64,000 bases of DNA from Utricularia gibba (GCA_002189035.1 CM007992.1:2604001-2668000); one strand, 5' to 3'. Shown: positions 4,571 through 41,774, numbered from the stretch's first letter. Made by a program: numbers and translations. Notes: generated by a model from the sequence alone, not told the origin.

Positions 4571-6060
4571 GTTGATGCATGAAACTAGTTTCACGTTGGT
4601 AAAATTGGTCTTAGCTAGAACTAAGGCAGAACTAAAACGAAATACAGTAAAGAAAAGTAATAAGTTTTGGAGCTCGGTTGTTTCTGAAATGGAATGGGTG
4701 ATGCCTTGAGACTCCTAGGGGATGTATGCTCATCATTAAACAAGCTCATACAAACCGCAAATCATACAACTATCTCACAAGGTCTAGGTCTACTCGCACT
4801 CTTGTTTTTCCCCCTAATCTTTGGTCTACCTCTAATTAGGGTTCTTAAGTTGGGTTTCACTACTTCCCCCTCCTGGATCTATCCTAGTTTGTTAAGGAAG
4901 TGGTGTGACTTATGGATATTTAGATTTAAAGATTGATTAACATGTTTCTCCCCTTTTCACCCCAAGGCACCCCTAAGTACTTAGCCACTCATACTTGAGA
5001 CAAATGAAAATAGAAAAGAAAACATCATTCACAATGCATTCCTGTCTCAGTTGACTACTAGAAGATAAACAAGCATAAAACTGAAATGTTCGATAGAAAG
5101 CTAGAAAACGTCGCTAGCTAATCTTAGCTAGGAGTAATAATTCTTGGAAAATAGAAAATAATCTTCAAACATGAGCTTAGTTCCTGTTCGTCTTCCTCCT
5201 TCCTCCTTAGAAAACCTTCTCCAGAAAGTTGTTCGTGAGTCTCCAAATGCAGAGACTAGACATTTAGGTTCAAAATGCAGGAATTGAAAGAGTGCCAGTG
5301 TGCAAGACGGGTAATCACTCAAGCATACATGTGAATTTCATCAAAATAAGTGACTTCAAAGATTAAATAAGCTAACATAACATAGTTAGATTTTCAAAGA
5401 GATACTAGTGGTCTCTTTTCATTTCTTCCTCTCTTCACCTTTTTTTTTTTCATTTTGTACAGAGATCAAGAGTAGGGAAAGTTCAAGCTTAACTCAGGCA
5501 ATTTTCGCTCCCCTCCTTTGTATATGAAGTGTGGGCCAATCACTCCTCTCCTTATTTCTCCTGAGGGTTTCCTACTCCTCTGAGTAATTCTCGTAACCTC
5601 CCTTCTCTCTTTACTCTGTTGTCTACGCATGCTTTTTAATTGTGTGTTGCTTTTCAAGACATGGGATTTCGTCACTTTTTTTTATGATGATGCTTTTGTG
5701 ACCCCCTCTTTTTTTTTCCATCTCTCTATAAGCCTTTCGACCACCAATATCCATGAAAGAACCAAATATGCCAGCTTGCACAAAAAAATCTCGATTGCAC
5801 AAATCTGAATTCGTCACACATGTTGCTACCTCACAAAGATAAGTAGGTTAAAAGTCATGCTCACAGGTGTACAAATGGTTAAAACAAAATTCATGCATCC
5901 TGTGCTTCATGAAAAGCATCATGCATGCATATGAAAACTCCTCAAATAGCTTGCAAAATTCTCCTGATCTTAGTACCGAACTACTAAATTACTCCTAACT
6001 TAGACTAACACCCTAAAATAAAAATAAAAATAAAAATAAAACTAAGACAATGCAGCGATG
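4571..6060. repeat. Retroelement-derived non-coding DNA
   Basis: This stretch lies between the inverted LTR-like segment and the coding remnant of the Athila-like element. It contains a T-run (5442-5451) and a short AAAAT tandem array at about 6014-6041 (roughly five units). No protein domain is visible; the open frames are not conserved-looking. It is probably LTR and 3' non-coding sequence of the decayed element. Confidence 0.35.
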
Positions 6061-8049: not shown

Positions 8050-11000
8050 TTTGCTACATGACAATGTTTTTTGAGAGGTTTTTTTATATATTGAATAAGT
8101 GCATGTACATATTAAGATAGGTTATGCTAAGAGAATCCTAAGTACAAGAGACATCGTCCTCACCAATCTTTGATATTATAGTGGCAATTCAATATCTTTT
8201 CCCAATTCAATATCTTTTCCTAGATTCTCTAGAATTCCTTTGGTAATGGAACTAGTTGGCCATCACTCTCAGATAAGTTTAAATCCTTAATGATAGATGT
8301 TGCACATTCTATTTGAGAGATAAATATATCTATTTTATTTCTGAAAATCTTTAACTCGAGATAGTACTTGGATTCTTCCAAGACATTGATTTGAATCAAT
8401 CATCGAGTGTAGTCTTTATCGTTTGAATTTCTTCAAGTAAATTTCTTGCATGTAGTAATTAAACATAAATCAATAGAACAATAATTTTCTTACCACATCT
8501 CTTGTAGAATATACAAGGGTCAAGTTGACTTTGTATATAATCGATAGTTTTCAGCTTTGAGGCAAGCTCCTTGTTTCATTTTCTTGAGGCTTACTTTAGT
8601 TCATAAATTGGTTTGAATAGCTTACAAACTTTAGTAGCCACAGGATAGTTTGGTGGACATTTCATGTAAACCTCTTCTTTTGGTTTATGAAACTAGTTAT
8701 GTGCTCCAACTAGTGCCGATACTATCCTTACACTTGTGCCCTTGGCAATAGGCAAGAAACTGTATTTAAAATCTTATCCTTTCATTTACCAATAACCTTG
8801 AATTACCAATATTGACTTTCTCCTTTCGAATGTGCCATTTGAATTTAGTTTACTTGTAAACCCACTTGCTCCCTACTAGGTTTTGATTTGGAGGAGGATC
8901 CACTAGAATCAATGTCTTATTATCCTCCAAAGCTTTATCTTCGATTTTCATGATCAATCTTCATTGTGGATCTTCTGGTACCTCTTCAAATATATTGGGT
9001 TTCTATTATGTAGAATTTCAATCATCTAATGTGCATACGTAACATGCATCCAATGAGCCTTTATAATTTGCCTCTAACTTCTTCTTACAATGGACTCCTC
9101 TAGAGGTGACCCGATCATGTCATTTTGATCATTTGAATTATTGTTTAATGCCTCTATGTTTTACAATATGAGGTTTGATTGAGATGGTTCACATAAATAT
9201 TTTGATTCTACATCATGTTGTAGTCTAGGGTCTTCTTCAAACACTTGAGAGTCCAATAATGGTATCATCCTAAAATCCTCATTTATAGCATTGCAGGATT
9301 TTTAGAGAAAAAATTGCTCATAAAAGATTACATCTTTAGACATCAAATATTTTGTATTCCTTTTTTGGGAGTATATTCTACAAACACTTCTTTTCTCCCT
9401 TTTTTTTTATCAAATTTGTCTTGATTTTTTAAAGGATTTGTGTAGAAATATAGACAACTGAAAGTTTAGCCTCCCAAGGTTGTTTTTGGCAACTTGTTAA
9501 TGATGTGCATTGCAGTCAATTGCACTTCTCCTCATATATATGTAGATGTGATGCACATGGTAGCCCAAGCCCAGCACTAGATAGGCCTAGCTCGATAGAA
9601 GAGGATGCGTTTTAAACCTATGGCTACTAGACAGAGGTGCAGTTTTTGGTTTTGGTTGAAAGGGTTCTTACTTTCCCCCTCGCTGCATTCTTTGATGGGT
9701 GCTTGAATATTGTTGAGATGCGCCGATACCGAATTACTGTGTGTGTTCAGGGTTGGCATGCGACGAGGTGGCGTGGCGTTTCTGGGTGCTACTCATCACT
9801 CACCCTGCTTTTGTGCTGTCGCTTGCTGCCTTTATTGATCCTTTTGATAATTAAGATGGAATCAGTGTAGTGACTTGAGCTGTGTCTCTGTTGGCTTACC
9901 TATCATTTTGGATACTTTGAGCTTGGCAGGCATATGTGCTCAAGCTCATCTATGACTCAAGCTAGTTTTTAACATTTCTTTTAGTATTACGTTGATTGGG
10001 CGAATCCCCATTTTGTTAATTCCTCCCAACGCTACATCAAGATGTATTTGATTGGTACATTAAAGGCCCATGCAACTTCTAAAAGATACTTATGCTTTCT
10101 TTCAACTTGTTCATTCTATTCCGGTATGTATAAGTAGTTGGTGTAATGCAAGATTTCATTTCCTACCAAAAGTTCTTTGAGCTCATTGTTGATATATTCA
10201 CCACCATTTTGCTTTGCACCATTTGATTTGCTTGCCAAATTGTCTTTCTATGATATTGACCAAGTTTTAGATCACAGGTATAATTTTAGACTTGTATTGG
10301 AGCAAGCAAGTCTAAGTTGCTTAGTTAATATCATCCACGACAGTAAGGAATGACCATGTGTTGATGATAGTGGGTACCTTATAGGATCCCCATATATCCA
10401 TATGAATTTTCTCAAAAAATTTTGTAGCGGTGGTTGTACTTACATTAAACCTCAAACATGTTTGTCTATTGCTGTGATAATATTCACAAGAGAGTAAGAG
10501 TTTTTTTATTCTTGGAGGACAGAAAATGCAGCTGCTTTAAAATATTGTCTAGAGCATGTCCCAATCGCATATGCTATAATACAAGTTTGGCAATAGAGGC
10601 ATTAATAAAAAGACTTTAGTGGAAACAAATAAAGAACGGATCCTTGGGATCAACTTGCATCTTATAGACCAAATAGTTTTCTAACTATACTTCATTAGTT
10701 TACCTTTTCTTTTGATTTTCCTAAGCTTTTGGTTCTGAAAAACAAAATTATTTGCAGTAAATAGGTACATCATATTGTTTTCTCTTAGTAACCTGGGAAA
10801 TGATATAGGATTTTTGTTGAATCCTAGAAGGTAAGGCACTTATGTCATTTTGATCTCCTCATTGATAGTGATTAAAGATTAATGATACAGTTTCTTTACT
10901 TGATATGTGCACATGACTGATAGAATGCTCATCTTACTCTTCAACCTTCGTATGCATTGAGTTATAGGTATAATCATTGGCTTTTAGATTGATGATTTTC

Positions 11001-20824: not shown

Positions 20825-27238
<6,414 letters not shown>

Positions 27239-31458: not shown

Positions 31459-31735
31459 TAAAAATAATGAGACGTATTTTATCAAGATACATTTGTATAC
31501 AAATAATATTTTGATTTAATTTATTTATATTTTCAATTAAATTTGTTTAACACAATCAAAAAAATATTGTTTAATAACTTGATGTTCAATAAGATTATTG
31601 ATGTTCATCAATCAAAAAAGCACATTGTGAGCATACAATTGATATTTATAAAAATTTGAACAAAATCTAATAAATATTTATAATGAAAATTTGTTATTTT
31701 AATTTTATAAAAATATACAAAATTTTATTATTAAA

Positions 31736-32911
31736 TGATGGTAATTCTGCAAGTGCACAAAAACCGTCGAAGTAATAAAATAAGATCGTATCCACAGAGA
31801 ATTGTTATTGGAATATTCTTTTCAAAAAGACCGAAAACAAAAGAAAGATTTGGTTTTGAAGACAATAAGAAAACTGGCTTTGGATCTAAGATCCACCTTA
31901 CTTGAAACTCACTCTTGCATGGGTGCAAACCTTGAGAAATGACCTGCTTGCGTAAGCTTTGGGGGTGTTATGCTAAAGTAGTGTTACTTGGTGACCGTTA
32001 TAGCACCGTCCCTTGTTTTGTGGGATTATGGAATCAACCATGCCACCAGAGCCATTTCACCTCTTGTGATAACCTATGTTTTCCCCATACCCAAATCTAA
32101 CCCCTACACCTCTCACCTTGCACACAGATTAGACAGAATGTGCCTTACCAACGATGTCCGATTGAACCCTTCTCCTTAGCTGCTTGAGGCCAACCTTTGA
32201 TTCTCCCACACTCCCTTAGGTCTGGTACTAAAGATTACGTTGGTAAAGAAAATGTTGCGAAAAATAGAATCAGACCTCAAATTAAATGTTGAAAAACATG
32301 GTAAGACAGTCACATGCGCAGAACTTGCGCAAGCAAGGCTTCACAGAAGATCCTCAGCCACAAGCGCTCACACGCGCATGCTTGACTCTAAACAACAAAA
32401 GTTGATGAAAAACGAAGAGAAAGGAATCCAAAACATACTAGACTCGATTCTAAACCCTAATTTGACTCTCTGGTCGTCCACCACTTGAATCCCCCTTTAG
32501 GTCTTCACATTTGGATCTTTTTATAATGATGGGGATTTGTCAGGTTTTCTTGATGGGCTCACATCAAATCTTCCATCTGAATCTTCTAAGATTTGATACA
32601 AATCTTCTAGGATGAGATCCAAGTTTTCCAAGATAAGATGTGAATCTTCTCTTATTCGAGAATCTTTGACCGAGACTTCATTTGGATAGACCAAATCTTA
32701 GCTTCCATTAAAGTAGCTCGAAAATCCTCCAAATTATTCTAAATTTGTCCTGAAAAATCACAAAACACACTTTCCCTCCAAAAAGATTAAAGTGGTATGA
32801 AAAATATAAAATTCTTCTAGAAACATAAGGAAAGTGAGATTAAACGAATGCAAAACCCATCTAAATGAGTCCTAAAAAGCACAAATATAAATGACACAAA
32901 ATCACTTATCA
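31736..32911 (-). repeat. 3' LTR of the Athila-like element
   Basis: 1,176 bp; plus-strand ends are TGATGG... and ...TTATCA. It pairs with 38,601-39,824 along its whole length, with many substitutions and with two extra segments present only in the other copy. The polypurine tract abuts its inner edge. Confidence 0.92.
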
Positions 32912-32925
32912 ACTTCCCCACACTT
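32912..32925 (-). other. Polypurine tract
   Basis: On the minus strand the 14 bases next to the 3' LTR read AAGTGTGGGGAAGT, a purine-rich plus-strand primer site of the usual form and position. Confidence 0.8.
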
Positions 32926-34117
32926 GAATGTTTGCTTGTCTTCAAGCAATTGTTCAAGGTATTTTCCTTCAAAATAGTAACTTGCAAATATAGTTAAGTC
33001 AAGAATATGCATAAGTTGTTCAATGACATACCATACACTAGCTCCCCTTGCACATAGCTACTCCTCACAGGTGTCACTCAATATGCTCAAGAAAAGAAAT
33101 CCATAAGAGGAAGGTAGAATGAAAAAGGTTCGCTCAATACCTGAATGCAGGCGAGTCAGTAAACTTGCGCAAGTGATCTACTGGTTTCAACAAGCTTGCG
33201 CAATCATGAGGTCTTTTTCTTGGGTTTTAGCGCGGCAGGAGCTTGGGACAGGTGGAAAATTCGGTTGGAGGCTCCATTTCATAGGTAATAAAGAGTGAGC
33301 ATCCATCAAACAGTTCTGCTATGCTTGTCCTTTGATTTTCGTGTTCCAAGAAACCCCTCTTTTAGCTTTGTGGCTGTTCCAACCTTTCAGCCTCTTTTCT
33401 CTCTTCTTTTTTTTTTTTTTTTAAAAAACAACTCTCTCTCGGACAGGATGTTATTGAAAATCCTTTCATAAATTCTTGAGATAGAGCTTGATCAGTGAAT
33501 TGAAAATTGCTCTCAACTTTTCTTCTTTGCAATAGAGCTCTTGGTTCTGTAACTTGCGCAAGCAAACGAACAGAACTATTTTCCAGATGCTCATTCCTTG
33601 GGTCAAGAGAAATTATTGTAGGCTATAATTGTCAAAATAGATTTGGCTTCTAATGTGGTGATCCAAATAAAAGGTTTCAGGCCAAGCGGGGCTCACTAAG
33701 TGGATTCAAGGTGAGATATTGGGATAAAATAAGGCAAATCCAAGTGCCTCAATCCTTTTGCACAAGACATGCAGAATAACTCAGCAGTATGCACAAGAAC
33801 TAGTCTATGATCATTCTGCATTCAAGTCACTCATAATGAAAAGAAAATGGTCTCCTCATCGAGAAACTAGGGCTATGTAGCTTGAGCAAGGGACATAAAA
33901 TAACAATATGCCAAGAAACAACATAGCAAGAGGCATACCAAAATTCTAATTTACAGCAACTATCTCAAAAAAATAATACAAAAAACAGATGCCTAGGTTC
34001 CAGCAAAACATAAAATGCAAGGAGTTGATTAATGAAATATATGCCAAATTTGGAATTTTTTTTTTAGGTATGAAAAACAATCTAAAAAGTAAAATATTCC
34101 TTCCCACACTTAAATGG
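32926..34117 (-). other. Internal non-coding 3' region of the retrotransposon
   Basis: This lies between the end of RNase H and the polypurine tract, where integrase would normally be encoded. I see no integrase landmark (no H2C2 finger, no D-D-E segments) on either strand. A T-run occurs near 33,407-33,423. Several copies of the CTTGCGCAAG palindrome lie here. Confidence 0.6.
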
Positions 34118-35237
34118 GTAGATCCCCCACACTTGTTTCAAGCTGTAGACGTGACAAATGATCAGCCACTCCATTTTCCTTGCCCTTCTTGTCACGAATT
34201 TCCAGATCAAATTCTTCGAGGAGTAGTATCCATCTTATCAATCTGGGTTTCGATTCCTGCTTGCTCAAAAGATATTTCAAGGCAGCGTGATCCGTATGAA
34301 CAATTACCTAGGCACCCAAAAAATAGGATCTGAATTTTTCAATGGCAAAAACAATTTCCAACAACTCATTTTCTGTGGTTGTGTAGTTCCTTTGGACTGC
34401 ATTGAGAGTTTTGCTGGCATAATAAATCACATAATTTACCTTGTCTTTTTTCTATCCAAGAATAGCCCCAACAGCACAATCACTTGCATCACACATCAGT
34501 TCAAATGGTAAGGTCCAATCTGGTGGTTGAAGAATGGGGGCAGTGATAAGAGCTTGCTTCAACGTGTTGAAGGCATGCACACATTTTGCATCAAAACAAA
34601 AATCTGCATCTTGCGCAAGCAACGCTGTTAGTGGGCGAGAGATGTGAGAAAAATTAGCAATAAACCTCCTATAAAATCCTGCATGCCCCAAGAAGCTTCT
34701 GATCCCTTTTACCGTAGTTGGTGCTGGTAATTTTTCAATCACCTCGATTTTTGCTGGATCCACTTGAATGCCTTTGGAAGAAATATGATGTCCAAGCATA
34801 ATGTCTTCTTCAACCATAAAATGGCATTTCTCCCAATTGAGTACCAAGTTGCACTCAATACACCTCTCCAACATGATGTCTAAGTTTTGCAAACATGAAT
34901 CAAAATCAATCCTATAAACAGATATATCATTCATAAATACCTCCATGATCTTCTCCACATGTTCTGAAAAAATGGCTGTCATGCAACGTTGAAAAGTTCT
35001 AGGAGCATTGCATAAACCGAATGGCATTCTCTTGTATGCAAAGGTGCCAAAAGGACAAGTAAATGTGATCTTGTGTTGATCTTCCGAATGAATTGGAATC
35101 TGAAAATATTCAGAATAACCATCAAGGTAACAATAGAAAGTTTGGTTACTTAACCTTTCCAGAATTTGATCAATAAATGGCAATGGGTAATGATCCTTTC
35201 TAGTGGCATCATTGAGTTTCCGAAAATCAATGCACAT
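34118..35237 (-). pseudogene. Reverse transcriptase-RNase H of the Athila-like element (inactive)
   Basis: The reverse transcriptase begins CIDFRKLN(D)ATRKD, has PLPFIDQ and YLDGYSEYFQI (the first catalytic Asp region), then PFGLCNAPRTFQ and FMNDISVY. The last is the family's F(M/V)DDFSV box, in which the first of the two adjacent catalytic Asp is Asn, so polymerisation should be lost. RNase H follows at about 34,490-34,130 with MCDASD, ASKTLN and TENELLEIVFA. It contains stop codons at the LGQ(R)KDK-type and LGAKVIVHTDH-type positions, both TAG, consistent with one-base changes from CAG and AAG. The end keeps ADHLSRL. No integrase follows. Confidence 0.88.
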
Positions 35238-35244
35238 CCTCTAG

Positions 35245-36363
35245 CTAGTGACCTTGCGCAAGGGGATGAGGTCTCCCTTCTCGTTTTGTGTCACTGTCAT
35301 GCCTCCTTTCTTTGATATGCAGTGCACGGGGACTCACCCATTGGTTGTCTGAAATAGAGTAGATGATGTCAGCATCTAACAATTTCAAAATTTCGTTTTT
35401 AATCACCTCCTTTAGCATAGGATTCGCTTGTCTTTGTGGTTGCACAATTGGTCTTGCTTTAGCTTTCAAATAAATTTGATGGGTGCAGAATTGAGGGTCA
35501 AGTCTTTTTAAGTCGTCCAAGGTGTACCCAATGGCTTGTTTGTGTTTGCGCAAGACATCCAGCAGCATTTGGGTGTGGTATTCATTCAATCCTGCGTTAA
35601 CAATCATGGGGTAAGTGTGATCATCCTCAAGAAACTCGTACCTCAATGATGGTGGCAGCTTCTTCAACTCAATTTTTCCTCCAACATCAAGTTCCTTCTT
35701 TGTTAGCCGAGCCATCATTGGTGTGTCATCTAGAGTGTCTTCTTTTTCATCCTGCAGAAGATTTACTTTCTGAATTTCGCGCAGAAAAACTACTTGCGCA
35801 TGCTCCTGCGTAACAACATCTTCCGCTTCCCCTTGCACAAGCTCGTTGCAGTCAAATCGCTTCATTGCTTGATCAACATTGAACTCCAGTTCCTCTTCTC
35901 CGAATCTGAGTGTCAATTTCTCTGCTCTAACATCAATTAAGGCTCCTGTGATTGCCATAAATGGTGTCTCTAAAATGATTGCCACCTTTACATCAAGTTC
36001 CATATCCAAAACAACAAAATCACACGGAACTAAATATTTTCCAATTTTTACCGGTACGTTTTCTAGCACTCCTTCAGGATTCTTCATGGATTTGTCAGCA
36101 AATACTAGCTGAATTTTTGTGGTTCTCAACTCCTCAAGATTCAGTGCTTTGAATAAAGAATAAGGCATCAAGCTGATACTTGACCCAAAATCATATAAGC
36201 ACTTCTCAAAATTGCTTCTTCCAATGATACAAGGGACTAAAAAAATTCCAGGATCTGCATGATTTTGAATCAGCCCCTTTGTAAGAATTGTGCTGCATTG
36301 CTTGGATAATTCAATAATAGCATTATTCTCAATCCTCCTTCGATTGGTCAAAATATCCTTCAA
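35245..36363 (-). pseudogene. Aspartic protease region of the Athila-like element
   Basis: The 372-residue frame carries a retroviral-type aspartic protease with the catalytic triplet region YDFGSSISLMPYSLF, corresponding to the lineage's CDLGASINLMP. It continues with CDFVVLDME and IILETPFM, where the usual flap-end I-I-L-G-R-P-F has Glu-Thr for Gly-Arg. The end of the frame has the start of reverse transcriptase (ARPIVQPQR, NPMLKEVIKNEI, LLDADIIY), so a shift or stop near 35,240 separates it from the main reverse transcriptase frame. The catalytic Asp is kept, the GR-to-ET change makes activity doubtful. Confidence 0.82.
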
Positions 36364-38469
36364 GAATTTCGCATAAGTGGCATTTGCAACATCACATCAG
36401 TGAATGAGATGTTCCCATGAAGAGTTTTCAGCATCTCCAGAAACTTGGAATATTGTTGATCTACTGATGATTTGGCATGTCTCTGTGGATAAGGGATTGG
36501 AGGATTATAAGAAGTTAGAGATACGTACACTGGAACATCCAGCAATTCGTCTGCTTGCGCAGGGGCTGCTGTTGTTGCACTCTGCATCTCACTTCTCGTT
36601 GCTGCAGCCTTACATTCAGCAGGATTCTTCTCTAGTTGACTTGGGAGCCTCGAAGCCTTGTGGGTTTGAGCGACATTACTCATCCTACTATCCCGAGTTG
36701 CTCCATACACTCATTAATTTCATTTCCCCAATTGTTCCCTTGCGCAGGCATAGAAGCTCCTTGTGCAAGTTTTCCTTGAAAATTCACAAAATTAACATTC
36801 GTACCTTCCTCTTCTGCCTCACTCTCTGTCTTTTTTGCTTCGACTTGAGCAATGACAGGCTGGAGTTTGCTGATTTTATCATCTAATTTTTGCAATGTTT
36901 CGGAAATCTTTGAAACAGTATTGTCACGAGGGTTGTCCTGAACTCCAGTTTTCGAATTCCTTGCTGGTTGAGACCATCGTGCCTGTCGTTTTGCAAACTC
37001 ATCAATTAGTTCCCAAGCCCTTCTAGGACTTATCTGGTCCAGGGTTCCAACACCCGCATTCAGCAGTCCCTTTGCTTGCATAGCCAGTCCATCATGAAAG
37101 CACATGATTATAGCAGCGGGGCTAAGTCCATGCTTATCCGTGACTTGTGTAATTTCCTTAAATCTCTCCCAAGCTGCTGCTATTCCTTCTCCTTCATCGT
37201 GTGAAAAATTAGTGATCTCAAACCTGGTGTTAGAGTACTTTATGGGTTCAAAATATTTGTCTAAAAATGCATCCTCCAATTTTTCCCAAGTATAAATAGA
37301 GTTGGGTGTCAAAGAGTCTAAACATCGCCTTGCTGACCCTCATAAAGAAAATGGAAATAAACGTAACCTGATCGCGTCGTTAGAGACTCCTCGTTCCACC
37401 ACCATGTAACAATACCTGGGAAAAATTGCAATGTGTTCTTCGGGATCCTCACCGGGTTCTCCACGAAATGGGCTTTGTTGCACCATGGTGATCAATGAAG
37501 GCTGGAGTTGGAATCTCCGCACGTTAATGGCCGGTGCAGCAATGAGTCCAGGCTTCCTCGTGTGTCGAAAGTTATCACCTAAAGGGACTTCATTCCAAGG
37601 ATCAACAGTAAATCTGTTAGCAGCCTGCTCCCTGCGCACATACCTGTCTCTTCCTGTGTGATGGTTCCTCACTTGCGCAGGTGGTTCCCTGCATGCTGGT
37701 TTTGATCCGTCCTCATCGCTAGATGCTTCTTCAGCATGCACATTCCTCCTGGGCATATGCCGTTGTGTTCCATGATTTTCCCTTTCAAGATTTCCTGCAA
37801 ATTTATACCTCTGCTCGTGACGAGGATTTTGGTTGTCTTGTCGATTTGCTCCATTGTGACCCCAACGGTCATCTCCTTCCCACCTTGGAGGAGAGTTCAC
37901 TCCTCGCCTTGGAGTTCGTGGGTTGTTGTTCTGATTGGCATGATGTTGAGGTTCAAAAGCTCTGTTTTCCTGCCATATGCAAACGTTGATTGTAAATAGT
38001 TTTCATTTGCACCTGCATGCCTAGGCCTTCCTAGACCATGTTCCAGTGCCCTGTTGGCTCTTCCTGGGTCTGGCAATGCGCCTATGGGCCCTTCTCGGAG
38101 AGGTTCCACACCTCGATTTGGTCCCAATCTTGCTGTTGTTCGTTCCCTTGCAAGTTCTTGATCAGATCCATCGCTACGCCTCCGATATGACCCTGCACGA
38201 TCAGCAGCAGATCTGTCTATACTTGTTCTTTCATTTATCAGCAAGGCTGATCAAGTTGCCCTGTTTGGCTGGTGTCTTGGCATCCGCGCTCGTTCGCTAT
38301 CTAGTTCGGACATCACCAGATAGTCCTCCTCATGTCCATAATGCCTTCTAGACATGGTTTCCCTGCGTTGCACTTGCGCTTGACGACTTTCCAACCTAAT
38401 TCTCCGATAGGTCCGGTCAATTTCCAGGTCTAGCGGGTACAGCTTGGTTGAAGCCCTATGCCTTCGCAT
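36360..38469 (-). pseudogene. gag of the Athila-like element (interrupted)
   Basis: Frames 38,469-38,251, 38,244-37,897, 37,900-37,340, 37,312-36,680 and 36,710-36,360 make up one decayed gag. The capsid region has LRLFPFSL, an in-frame TGA, then TPNSIYTWEKLEDAFLDKYF, matching the LRLFPFSL..KA..WL.SL.P.SI.TW..L...FL.KYF pattern of the retrotransposon gag domain. The next parts include SDKHGL-type and PRRAWELIDE segments and a coiled-coil-like stretch (KISETLQKLDDKISKLQ). The N-terminal third is Arg-rich. At least three frame breaks are present besides the TGA. Confidence 0.8.
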
Positions 38470-38578
38470 GCAACACTAATTAAAAGCAACTGCTTGTGCA
38501 AGTGCGCTAAACAAAATGTCTCGAAAATAACAGAAAAATAAGAAATGATCAGAAAAGAAATTCCAAAGGAATACAATT

Positions 38579-38594
38579 CCCGGCAACGGCGCCA
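38579..38594 (-). other. Primer binding site, tRNA-Asp type
   Basis: On the minus strand, six bases inside the 5' LTR, the sequence is TGGCGCCGTTGCCGGG, the complement of the 3' end of plant tRNA-Asp. This is the primer typical of Athila-type elements. Confidence 0.88.
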
Positions 38595-38600
38595 AAAACT

Positions 38601-39824
38601 TGATGGTAATTCTGCAAGTGCACAGAAACCGTCGAAGTAATAAAATAAGATCGTATTCATGGGAATTGTTATTGGAATATTCTTTTCAAACAAAGATTCA
38701 AAAAGACCGAACACAAAAGAAAGATTTGGTTTTGAAAACAATAAGAAAAGTGGTCTTAGATCTAAAATAGTGCTACTCGGTGTAATAAAATAAGATCGTA
38801 TCCACCTTACTTGAAACTTGCCCTTGCGTGTATGCAAACCTTAAGAACTGACCTGCTTGCGCAAGCTTTGGAGGTGTTATGCTAAAATAGTGCTACTCGG
38901 TGACCGTTATAGCACCGTCCCTTGTTTTGTGGGATTATGGAATCAACCACGCCACTAGAGCCATTTCACCTCTTGTGATAACCCATGTTTTCCCTATACC
39001 CAAATCTAACCCCTACATCTCTCACCTCGCAGACAGATTAGAAAGAATGCGCCTTACCAACGATGTCCAATTAAGCCCTTCTCCTTAGTTGTTTGAGTCC
39101 AACCTTTGATTCTCCCACACTCCCTTAGGGCTATATGGTACTAAAGATCACGTCGGTAAAGAAAACATTGCGAAAAACAGAATCAGACCTCAAATTAAAT
39201 GTTGAAAAACATGGTAAGACAGTCACACGCGCCGAACTTGCGCAAGCAAGGCTTCACAGCAGATCCTCAACCGCAAGCGCTCACACGTGCATTCTTGACT
39301 ATAAACAACAAAAGTTGATGAAAAACGAAGAGAAAGGAATCCAAAACATACTAGACTCGACTCTAAACCCTAATTTGACTCTCTGGTCATCCACCACTTG
39401 ACTCCCCCTTTAGGTCTTCGCATTTGAATTTTTTTATATTGGTGGGGATTTGTCAGGCTTTCTTGATGGGCTCACATCAAATCTTCTATTTGAATCTTGT
39501 AAGATTTGATACAAATCTTCTAGGATGAGATCCAAGTTTTCCAAGATAAGATGCGAATCTTCTTTTATTTGAGAATGTTTGACTGAGTTTTCATTTGGAT
39601 AGACCAAATTTTAACTTTCATCAAAGTATCTCGAAAATCCTCCAAATTATTCTAAATTTGTCCTGAAAAATCACAAAACACATTTTCCCTCCAAAAAGAT
39701 CGAAGTGGTATGAAAGATATAAAATTCTTCTAGAAACATAAGGAAATTGAAATAAAAAAAATGCAAAACGCATCTAATTGAGTCCTAAAAAGCACAAATA
39801 TAAGTGACATAAAATCAATTGTCA
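38601..39824 (-). repeat. 5' LTR of the Athila-like element
   Basis: 1,224 bp, 48 bp longer than the other LTR. The extra length is accounted for mainly by about 12 bp near 38,688-38,699 and a mosaic patch at about 38,763-38,800 made of sequence copied from elsewhere in this LTR. Ends are TGATGG and TGTCA, followed by the TTAAA target duplication. Confidence 0.92.
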
Positions 39825-39829
39825 TTAAA

Positions 39830-41072: not shown

Positions 41073-41774
41073 TCAATCGCCGCATTGCTGATTCGGATCC
41101 CCTGTATCTTCCCCCGCAACGAAAGCCGCCAAATTCAAGTACTTGTCTGGATCATCGCCGCCGCTGCGCCACCGCGCGCGGCAGAGTACACAGGTCGTGG
41201 ATCCTCGCCGGCAACTCTTCCTCCATGTCATGAAACACTTCTCGTGTAACGTGTTCTTGCAAATCCCGCACTCGACTATCTTCTCGTCTCCACGCATCAC
41301 TTCCAAGCAAACAGGGCACCCGCTTATACCATCTCCCGTTTTCTGGGGTTGACCGACGTATCGGCTCCTCCACTGAGGTTGCATCTGATGAAACCTTGCC
41401 CTAACGGCGGCGCCAGCGAGGGCTTCGCTAGAGGTGGGAAGCTCGAGAAAACGGTTAACTTGACACTGCCGGAGGCTCCGTCGCCAGAGCGCCGAATCGT
41501 CCAACGGAAGCCCGAGAACCCGAATGAAGACAAATAGAATGTGTTTGCACGGCGTTGCGCGGTCGGGGCACGTGCACGACGGCGTGGCGGAGAGGGTGAC
41601 AGTGTACACGTTGCCCGTAGAACCGAGGACGAAGAAAACAGAATCGGCTCGGTGCAGGAGGCGGAGACGGTGATTTACGGCACGGACGACCCGATCTGAG
41701 AATTGGGGATGTGAAGGGTCGAAGCGACGTTGCAGATGATCGGAATCAGCGCTTGAGGAGGCGAGCGGTTCCAT
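41073..41774 (-). CDS. SWIM and RING zinc-finger protein, putative E3 ubiquitin ligase (233 aa, intronless)
   Basis: Residues about 55-85 form a SWIM zinc finger: C67-T-C69, then C76-K-H78, fitting C-x-C-xn-C-x-H. Residues 153-198 form a RING-type finger with C153, C156, C169, C172, H177, C180, C195 and C198, a C3HC4-like spacing with Trp184 between the last ligand pairs. SWIM plus RING in one short protein is the layout of ZSWIM2/MEX-type proteins and of plant proteins often labelled 'MEKK1-like', though there is no kinase domain here. A role as an E3 ligase is inferred from the RING. The coding sequence is far more GC-rich than its surroundings. The start at 41,774 is the first ATG and is followed by a Ser-rich stretch. 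No frame defect. Confidence 0.85.
   Translation of the reverse strand: MEPLASSSADSDHLQRRFDPSHPQFSDRVVRAVNHRLRLLHRADSVFFVLGSTGNVYTVTLSATPSCTCPDRATPCKHILFVFIRVLGLPLDDSALWRRSLRQCQVNRFLELPTSSEALAGAAVRARFHQMQPQWRSRYVGQPQKTGDGISGCPVCLEVMRGDEKIVECGICKNTLHEKCFMTWRKSCRRGSTTCVLCRARWRSGGDDPDKYLNLAAFVAGEDTGDPNQQCGD

Follow-up and report, generated by a model that had tools for sequence, protein, structure and literature searches.

A dispersed 10-bp palindrome in one retrotransposon clade of Utricularia gibba as a candidate site for a dimeric DNA-binding protein

A 10-bp palindrome, CTTGCGCAAG, with the core CTTG-CG-CAAG, recurs from end to end of a long terminal repeat (LTR) retrotransposon located at positions 31736-39824, on the minus strand, of a 64,000-nucleotide stretch of Utricularia gibba DNA (GCA_002189035.1 CM007992.1:2604001-2668000), hereafter the window. 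The comparisons presented below directly support its enrichment, its restriction to one clade of elements, its conservation at aligned positions, an origin by substitution in two reading frames, its retention in non-autonomous partner elements and an even spacing. It is very likely that the palindrome is a real, selected DNA motif. We favor, with a probability of about 0.7, its interpretation as a selected double-stranded DNA site, putatively bound by a protein with two-fold symmetry (a dimer).

Occurrence in the window and in the genome

The seven exact and ten one-mismatch copies of CTTGCGCAAG listed in the first-pass annotation of the window were all recovered at their positions (7/7 and 10/10). 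Two further one-mismatch copies were detected, one within the element at 33881 and one outside it at 25400, which brings the element to 7 exact and 11 one-mismatch copies and the whole window to 7 and 12. The annotation had noticed no exact copy elsewhere in the window, and indeed all 7 are inside the element. Dinucleotide shuffling of the whole 64-kb window yielded 0.01 exact copies and 0.91 copies with at most one mismatch, compared with 7 and 19 observed, numbers that were reached by 0 of 100 shuffles. The copies carried by an LTR pair duplicate each other, which reduces the number of independent copies per element, but the count is still far above chance. The palindrome and its sub-words are also the commonest non-A-rich words of the element. 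The exact copies are the following:

32324..32333: exact CTTGCGCAAG, in an LTR
33164..33173: exact motif, 3′ non-coding DNA; doublet with 33195, 31 bp apart; homologous to position 9194 of the family copy L008
33553..33562: exact motif, 3′ non-coding DNA; equivalent to L008 8772
34610..34619: exact motif in pol, read as LAQ; LHK/LQK in motif-free Athila elements
35253..35262: exact motif in pol; equivalent to L008 5567; LRK in in-frame relatives, TRV/QRA in motif-free Athila elements
38856..38865: exact motif, in an LTR
39237..39246: exact motif, in an LTR

Across the genome (100.1 Mb, 516 contigs), exact matches to CTTGCGCAAG number 493; the reversed pattern has 22 and TCTGCGCAGA, a palindrome of the same composition, has 50. 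The CpG-decayed form CTTGTGCAAG is present 253+264 times, versus 37+50 for its reverse. Clade membership was checked in 20 regions, mostly with isolated motif copies, picked among the first exact matches listed: the motif lies inside clade DNA in 16 of them, while the other 4 fit the chance level. Hence the motif is almost exclusive to one clade, and its density outside the clade is close to chance; an equally high density there is what the first-pass annotation had named as speaking against its proposal.

As outgroups we used six motif-free Athila elements from this genome. Each has 0 or 1 near-matches within its own sequence, none showed a different 10-bp palindrome of similar enrichment, and in the reverse transcriptase (RT) tree they separate from the motif clade with a support of 1.0.

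Conservation, origin and spacing of the sites

Pairwise projection of ten family copies onto L008 placed at least 14 sites at shared aligned positions (L008 coordinates 1421, 1801, 2148, 3838, 4989, 5276, 5567, 6202, 6846, 7391, 7735, 8443, 8772 and 9194), and further aligned positions hold half-site variants such as CCTGCGCAAG. The other outcome named beforehand as unfavorable, relatives devoid of the motif at aligned positions, is thus not what was observed. Among the 122 site cells of the family, 79 are intact, 20 show CpG decay only and 23 are otherwise different, which makes CpG decay the commonest single type of departure and agrees with the earlier suggestion that a once denser set of copies has been eroded by deamination. 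The eight non-CpG bases are kept at 90.6% in L009 (80% identical), versus 79.0% in displaced control windows (p=0.003), and at 90.0% in L010 (77% identical), versus 73.8% (p=0.03). Around the sites, a weak but symmetric preference was seen, with R just 5′ and Y just 3′ of the site, few G at -2 and few C at the mirror position.

Most of the coding copies are read in one of two frames, LAQ (CTT GCG CAA) or LRK (TTG CGC AAG). At the corresponding positions (L008 numbering), the six outgroup elements display LHK/LQK at the LAQ site 6202 and RSD/KSD/KSE at the LAQ site 6846, TRV/QRA at the LRK site 5567, and QE/NR/KA after the L at 5276. Where motif-bearing and motif-free elements are aligned, the RT sites and most others are free of indels. 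The motif residues are 25% identical to the outgroups, against 50% elsewhere, and 75% identical within the clade, against 58% elsewhere (position permutation, p=0.0017). Judging from these alignments, the simplest history would be that substitutions wrote the sites into existing sequence and that the sites were then kept; the coding alignments are mostly ungapped and gave no sign of an origin by tandem repeat or insertion.

The sites are also found in a group of short 3.6-kb elements with related LTRs and with most of pol deleted (L003, L018, L019, L020 and L004, the non-autonomous LTR family that includes C1:4059500-4066500). For the most part, their internal region cannot be aligned with the window element at the DNA level. 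They retain 9-12 sites, either exact or with one mismatch. For the pair L003 and L008, at the alignable non-coding and LTR sites, the core bases are identical in 40/40 cases versus 82% in controls (p=0.0035). The site at 2656 of L018, whose eight core bases L003, L019 and L020 all preserve, lies in a frame with a ratio of non-synonymous to synonymous substitution (Ka/Ks) of 0.8-1.06.

Along the element family, the motif recurs roughly every 300-700 bp. With doublets counted once and spacing compared with random placement, the best-preserved non-autonomous copy, L018, shows a mean spacing of 371 bp with a coefficient of variation of 0.14 (p<5e-5), and sites are likewise more even than random in L003 (p=0.00015) and L008 (p=0.007). 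That about 370 bp is close to two nucleosome repeats is no more than suggestive. Doublets 21, 31 or 39 bp apart occupy positions conserved among relatives (L008 3838/3859, L008 9163/9194 and L018 3426/3447); the gaps of 21 and 31 bp are near two and three helical turns, in few independent cases.

Structure of the carrier elements

The window element is organized as follows:

31731..31735: left target-site duplication, TTAAA
31736-39824, minus strand: LTR retrotransposon, taken to be Athila-like Ty3/gypsy
31736..32911, minus strand: 3′ LTR in element sense, TG..CA ends, 1176 bp; motif copies at 31947 (CTTGCGTAAG) and 32324 (exact)
34113..34116: junction at which about 1.5-1.6 kb carried by relatives, the integrase region included, is absent
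34452..36363, minus strand: pol remnant (protease region, RT, start of RNase H); motif copies at 34610, 35253, 35545, 35793 and 35832
36680..38244, minus strand: gag remnants in three open reading frame (ORF) pieces, with a Retrotrans_gag match within 36680-37312; motif variants at 36739, 36760 and 37672
38541..38600, minus strand: primer-binding site (PBS) region, TTTTTGGCGCCGTTGCCGGG, adjoining the 5′ LTR
38601..39824, minus strand: 5′ LTR in element sense, TG..CA ends, 1224 bp; motif copies at 38856 and 39237
39825..39829: right target-site duplication, TTAAA

The two LTRs are 88% identical (1225 columns), and the insertion is therefore old. Pfam matches to RVT_1 (E 7e-21) and RT_RNaseH_2 (E 4e-12) cover 34452-35237, while the protease region was assigned via its similarity to the ORF of the relative L013, whose own aspartyl-protease matches are weak and below the Pfam cut-off. 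L013 also carries Pfam matches to RNase H, H2C2 and the rve integrase, and the gag-PR-RT-RH-IN order of Ty3/gypsy elements is recovered with gag and RT from the window and RNase H and integrase from L013. The window copy has lost its integrase region and its reading frames are broken; L005, L007 and L008 hold an extra stretch of about 1.5-1.6 kb between the matches that flank the window junction. The Athila-like label is our assumption, drawn from the PBS, whose region contains TGGCGCCGTTGCCGGG, from the pol sequence context and from the likeness to other such elements of the genome. No Gag zinc knuckle was recognized in the window clade, the few regular-expression matches lying away from the gag position.

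A single TATA-like match (consensus match only) is located in the 5′ LTR at about LTR position 388, and the motif sites are at about 580 and 960. As this match precedes both LTR sites, every site of the element may be transcribed. Each LTR also contains three imperfect 21-bp repeats resembling AATCTTCTAAGATTTGATACA (32559-32649 and 39472-39562), sense-upstream of the motif copies. Near the element, a 233-aa ORF (41073-41774, minus strand) resembles by eye a SWIM- plus RING-type zinc-finger protein.

In the non-autonomous group, the first ORF is an orphan of about 168 codons with Ka/Ks of 0.22-0.52, which matched nothing in Pfam and for which the autonomous elements retrieved here yielded no relative. 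L011 was considered as a motif-bearing distant Athila element and rejected: its two copies sit in an LTR of the window clade in opposite orientation (L011 153-1347), which lies near a motif-free Athila element and could be mistaken for that element's own LTR.

Competing explanations and known parallels

The two reading frames, the aligned conservation, the substitution origin and the retention in non-autonomous elements together disfavor a protein motif, an RNA hairpin, chance and the insertion of a 10-mer. Selection on LAQ or LRK peptides, for example as protease cleavage sites, would account for the frames in which most coding copies are read, but these two frames give unrelated peptides, copies are also present in the LTRs and in 3′ non-coding DNA, and the non-autonomous ORF retains a site in its second part, at the Ka/Ks given above. 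The first-pass annotation had argued that no single protein motif explains the copies, and this is borne out; the non-coding copies largely refute a protein-level motif, which we consider barely credible. Neutral leftovers, generated by duplication or insertion of the 10-mer and persisting by common descent alone, are very improbable as well. The sites of the family are indeed shared by descent, but coding sites align mostly gap-free to motif-free Athila elements and differ from them by substitutions, core bases are better conserved than flanks across 15-25% divergence, and the flanks of different sites are unrelated to each other.

An action on genomic RNA, where the self-complementary CUUGCGCAAG would drive dimerization or packaging into particles, including those of the non-autonomous partner, is compatible with the apparent location of all sites in the transcribed part, given that the TATA-like match precedes the first LTR site, with the ability of a palindrome to pair between molecules, and with the retention of sites in a possibly trans-packaged partner. 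However, the predicted self-hairpin probability is 0.002, versus 0.06 with shuffled flanks, stems reach at most 1 pair past the 10-mer, the sites are predicted to be less accessible than GC-matched 10-mers, and the half-site variants show no compensation on the other side. We regard this role as quite unlikely. The first-pass annotation had proposed a dispersed protein-binding or dimer-type site, or a chromatin or packaging signal; the dispersed dimer-type site is supported, whereas the self-hairpin prediction lends no support to packaging through an RNA hairpin. A host transcription-factor site, with a plant factor binding the palindrome as an enhancer to drive expression of the element, appears rather unlikely. 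Palindromic, factor-like sites do exist in the LTRs, and the repeated palindromic boxes of Sirevirus LTRs have been proposed as regulatory (PMC2829016). Nevertheless, both LTR sites follow the TATA-like match, and gag, pol and the 3′ region hold the majority of the sites, in an even and unclustered arrangement whose extension into coding DNA an enhancer leaves unexplained; beyond the clade, copies are near chance level. The CTTG-N5-CAAG sites of plant NAC-type factors differ from the present motif in their spacer. A full-text literature search for CTTGCGCAAG returned nothing relevant by title, and the combination of TTGCGCAA with 'plant transcription factor' matched a single paper, on an immunity screen.

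Several points weigh against the favored interpretation of a selected double-stranded DNA site read by a dimer. For the window copy the evenness of the spacing is marginal (p=0.04), and for L019 and L020 it lacks significance. Excess conservation is weak inside the 90%-identical family (p 0.04 to 0.66), as expected because these are dead copies. No binding protein was identified, no convincing Pfam match pointed to an extra ORF with a DNA-binding domain among the clade ORFs scanned, and the fold prediction for the orphan ORF was unusable, with a predicted local distance difference test (pLDDT) score of 37.

If such a protein binds the site, copies some hundreds of bp apart would mark the element along its whole length, LTRs included, and this tag might in turn recruit a factor, encoded by the transposable element (TE) or by the host, that keeps the body of the element open against DNA methylation and silencing. 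The non-autonomous partner would then share the anti-silencing benefit in trans. A regular, body-wide tag that overwrites coding sequence in two frames and is read by a dedicated dimeric TE or host protein acting over a few hundred bp per site, to the profit of the partner as well, is conceivable, although at less than even odds. By analogy with the VANC motifs of VANDAL transposons, the purpose could be anti-silencing or self-marking, a suggestion that is more tentative still.

In Arabidopsis, VANC21, encoded by the Mutator-like element VANDAL21, binds YAGTATTAY, a motif enriched in that family alone (PMC5735166). This non-palindromic motif evolves by tandem duplication and occurs in a single orientation within non-coding tandem repeats, and binding of the TE-encoded protein causes a demethylation that extends along the element (PMC5735166, PMC10398659). 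The present family shares with VANDAL a short motif with many copies per element, enriched in one TE family and rare in relatives. It differs in that its site is palindromic, evenly dispersed, also located in coding DNA, made by point substitution and carried by an LTR retrotransposon; same-orientation motifs in non-coding tandem repeats are not seen in it, and among described domains no VANC-like one was found in the Pfam-scanned ORFs. The Sirevirus RMs, for which a cis-regulatory function was proposed, are palindromic, mostly with a CGG-CCG core, and are concentrated near the envelope gene and, within LTRs, upstream of the TATA box (PMC2829016). Like them, the present motif is palindromic, of high copy number and specific to a plant LTR-retrotransposon lineage, but its sites extend from one LTR through gag and pol to the other, none of them upstream of the TATA-like match, and they belong to Ty3/gypsy elements with a CTTG-CG-CAAG core rather than to Ty1/copia elements with CGG-CCG. 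We assign the motif to neither group, from which it differs in being evenly dispersed through LTR, gag and pol, in having arisen by substitution in coding frames and in being retained by a partner without pol.

Other systems offer more distant likenesses. The Su(Hw) insulator array of Drosophila gypsy places several binding sites for a host protein inside an LTR retrotransposon; unlike the present sites, these form a compact, non-palindromic cluster in the 5′ untranslated region, outside coding DNA. Bacterial DNA uptake sequences are short motifs spread across coding and non-coding DNA and tolerated in favored reading frames; they are genome-wide and tied to transformation, and the analogy with the present motif concerns distribution only.

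Plant retrotransposons are thought to rely mostly on cis signals borne by their LTRs. If our interpretation is correct, a selected 10-bp site across LTRs, gag, pol and non-coding DNA means that the whole body of the element is recognized, through a site strong enough to alter conserved pol residues and kept by a partner lacking pol. This raises the question of whether LTR retrotransposons possess sequence-specific anti-silencing or self-recognition, as VANDAL DNA transposons do, and CTTGCGCAAG is a ready probe for isolating the binding protein.

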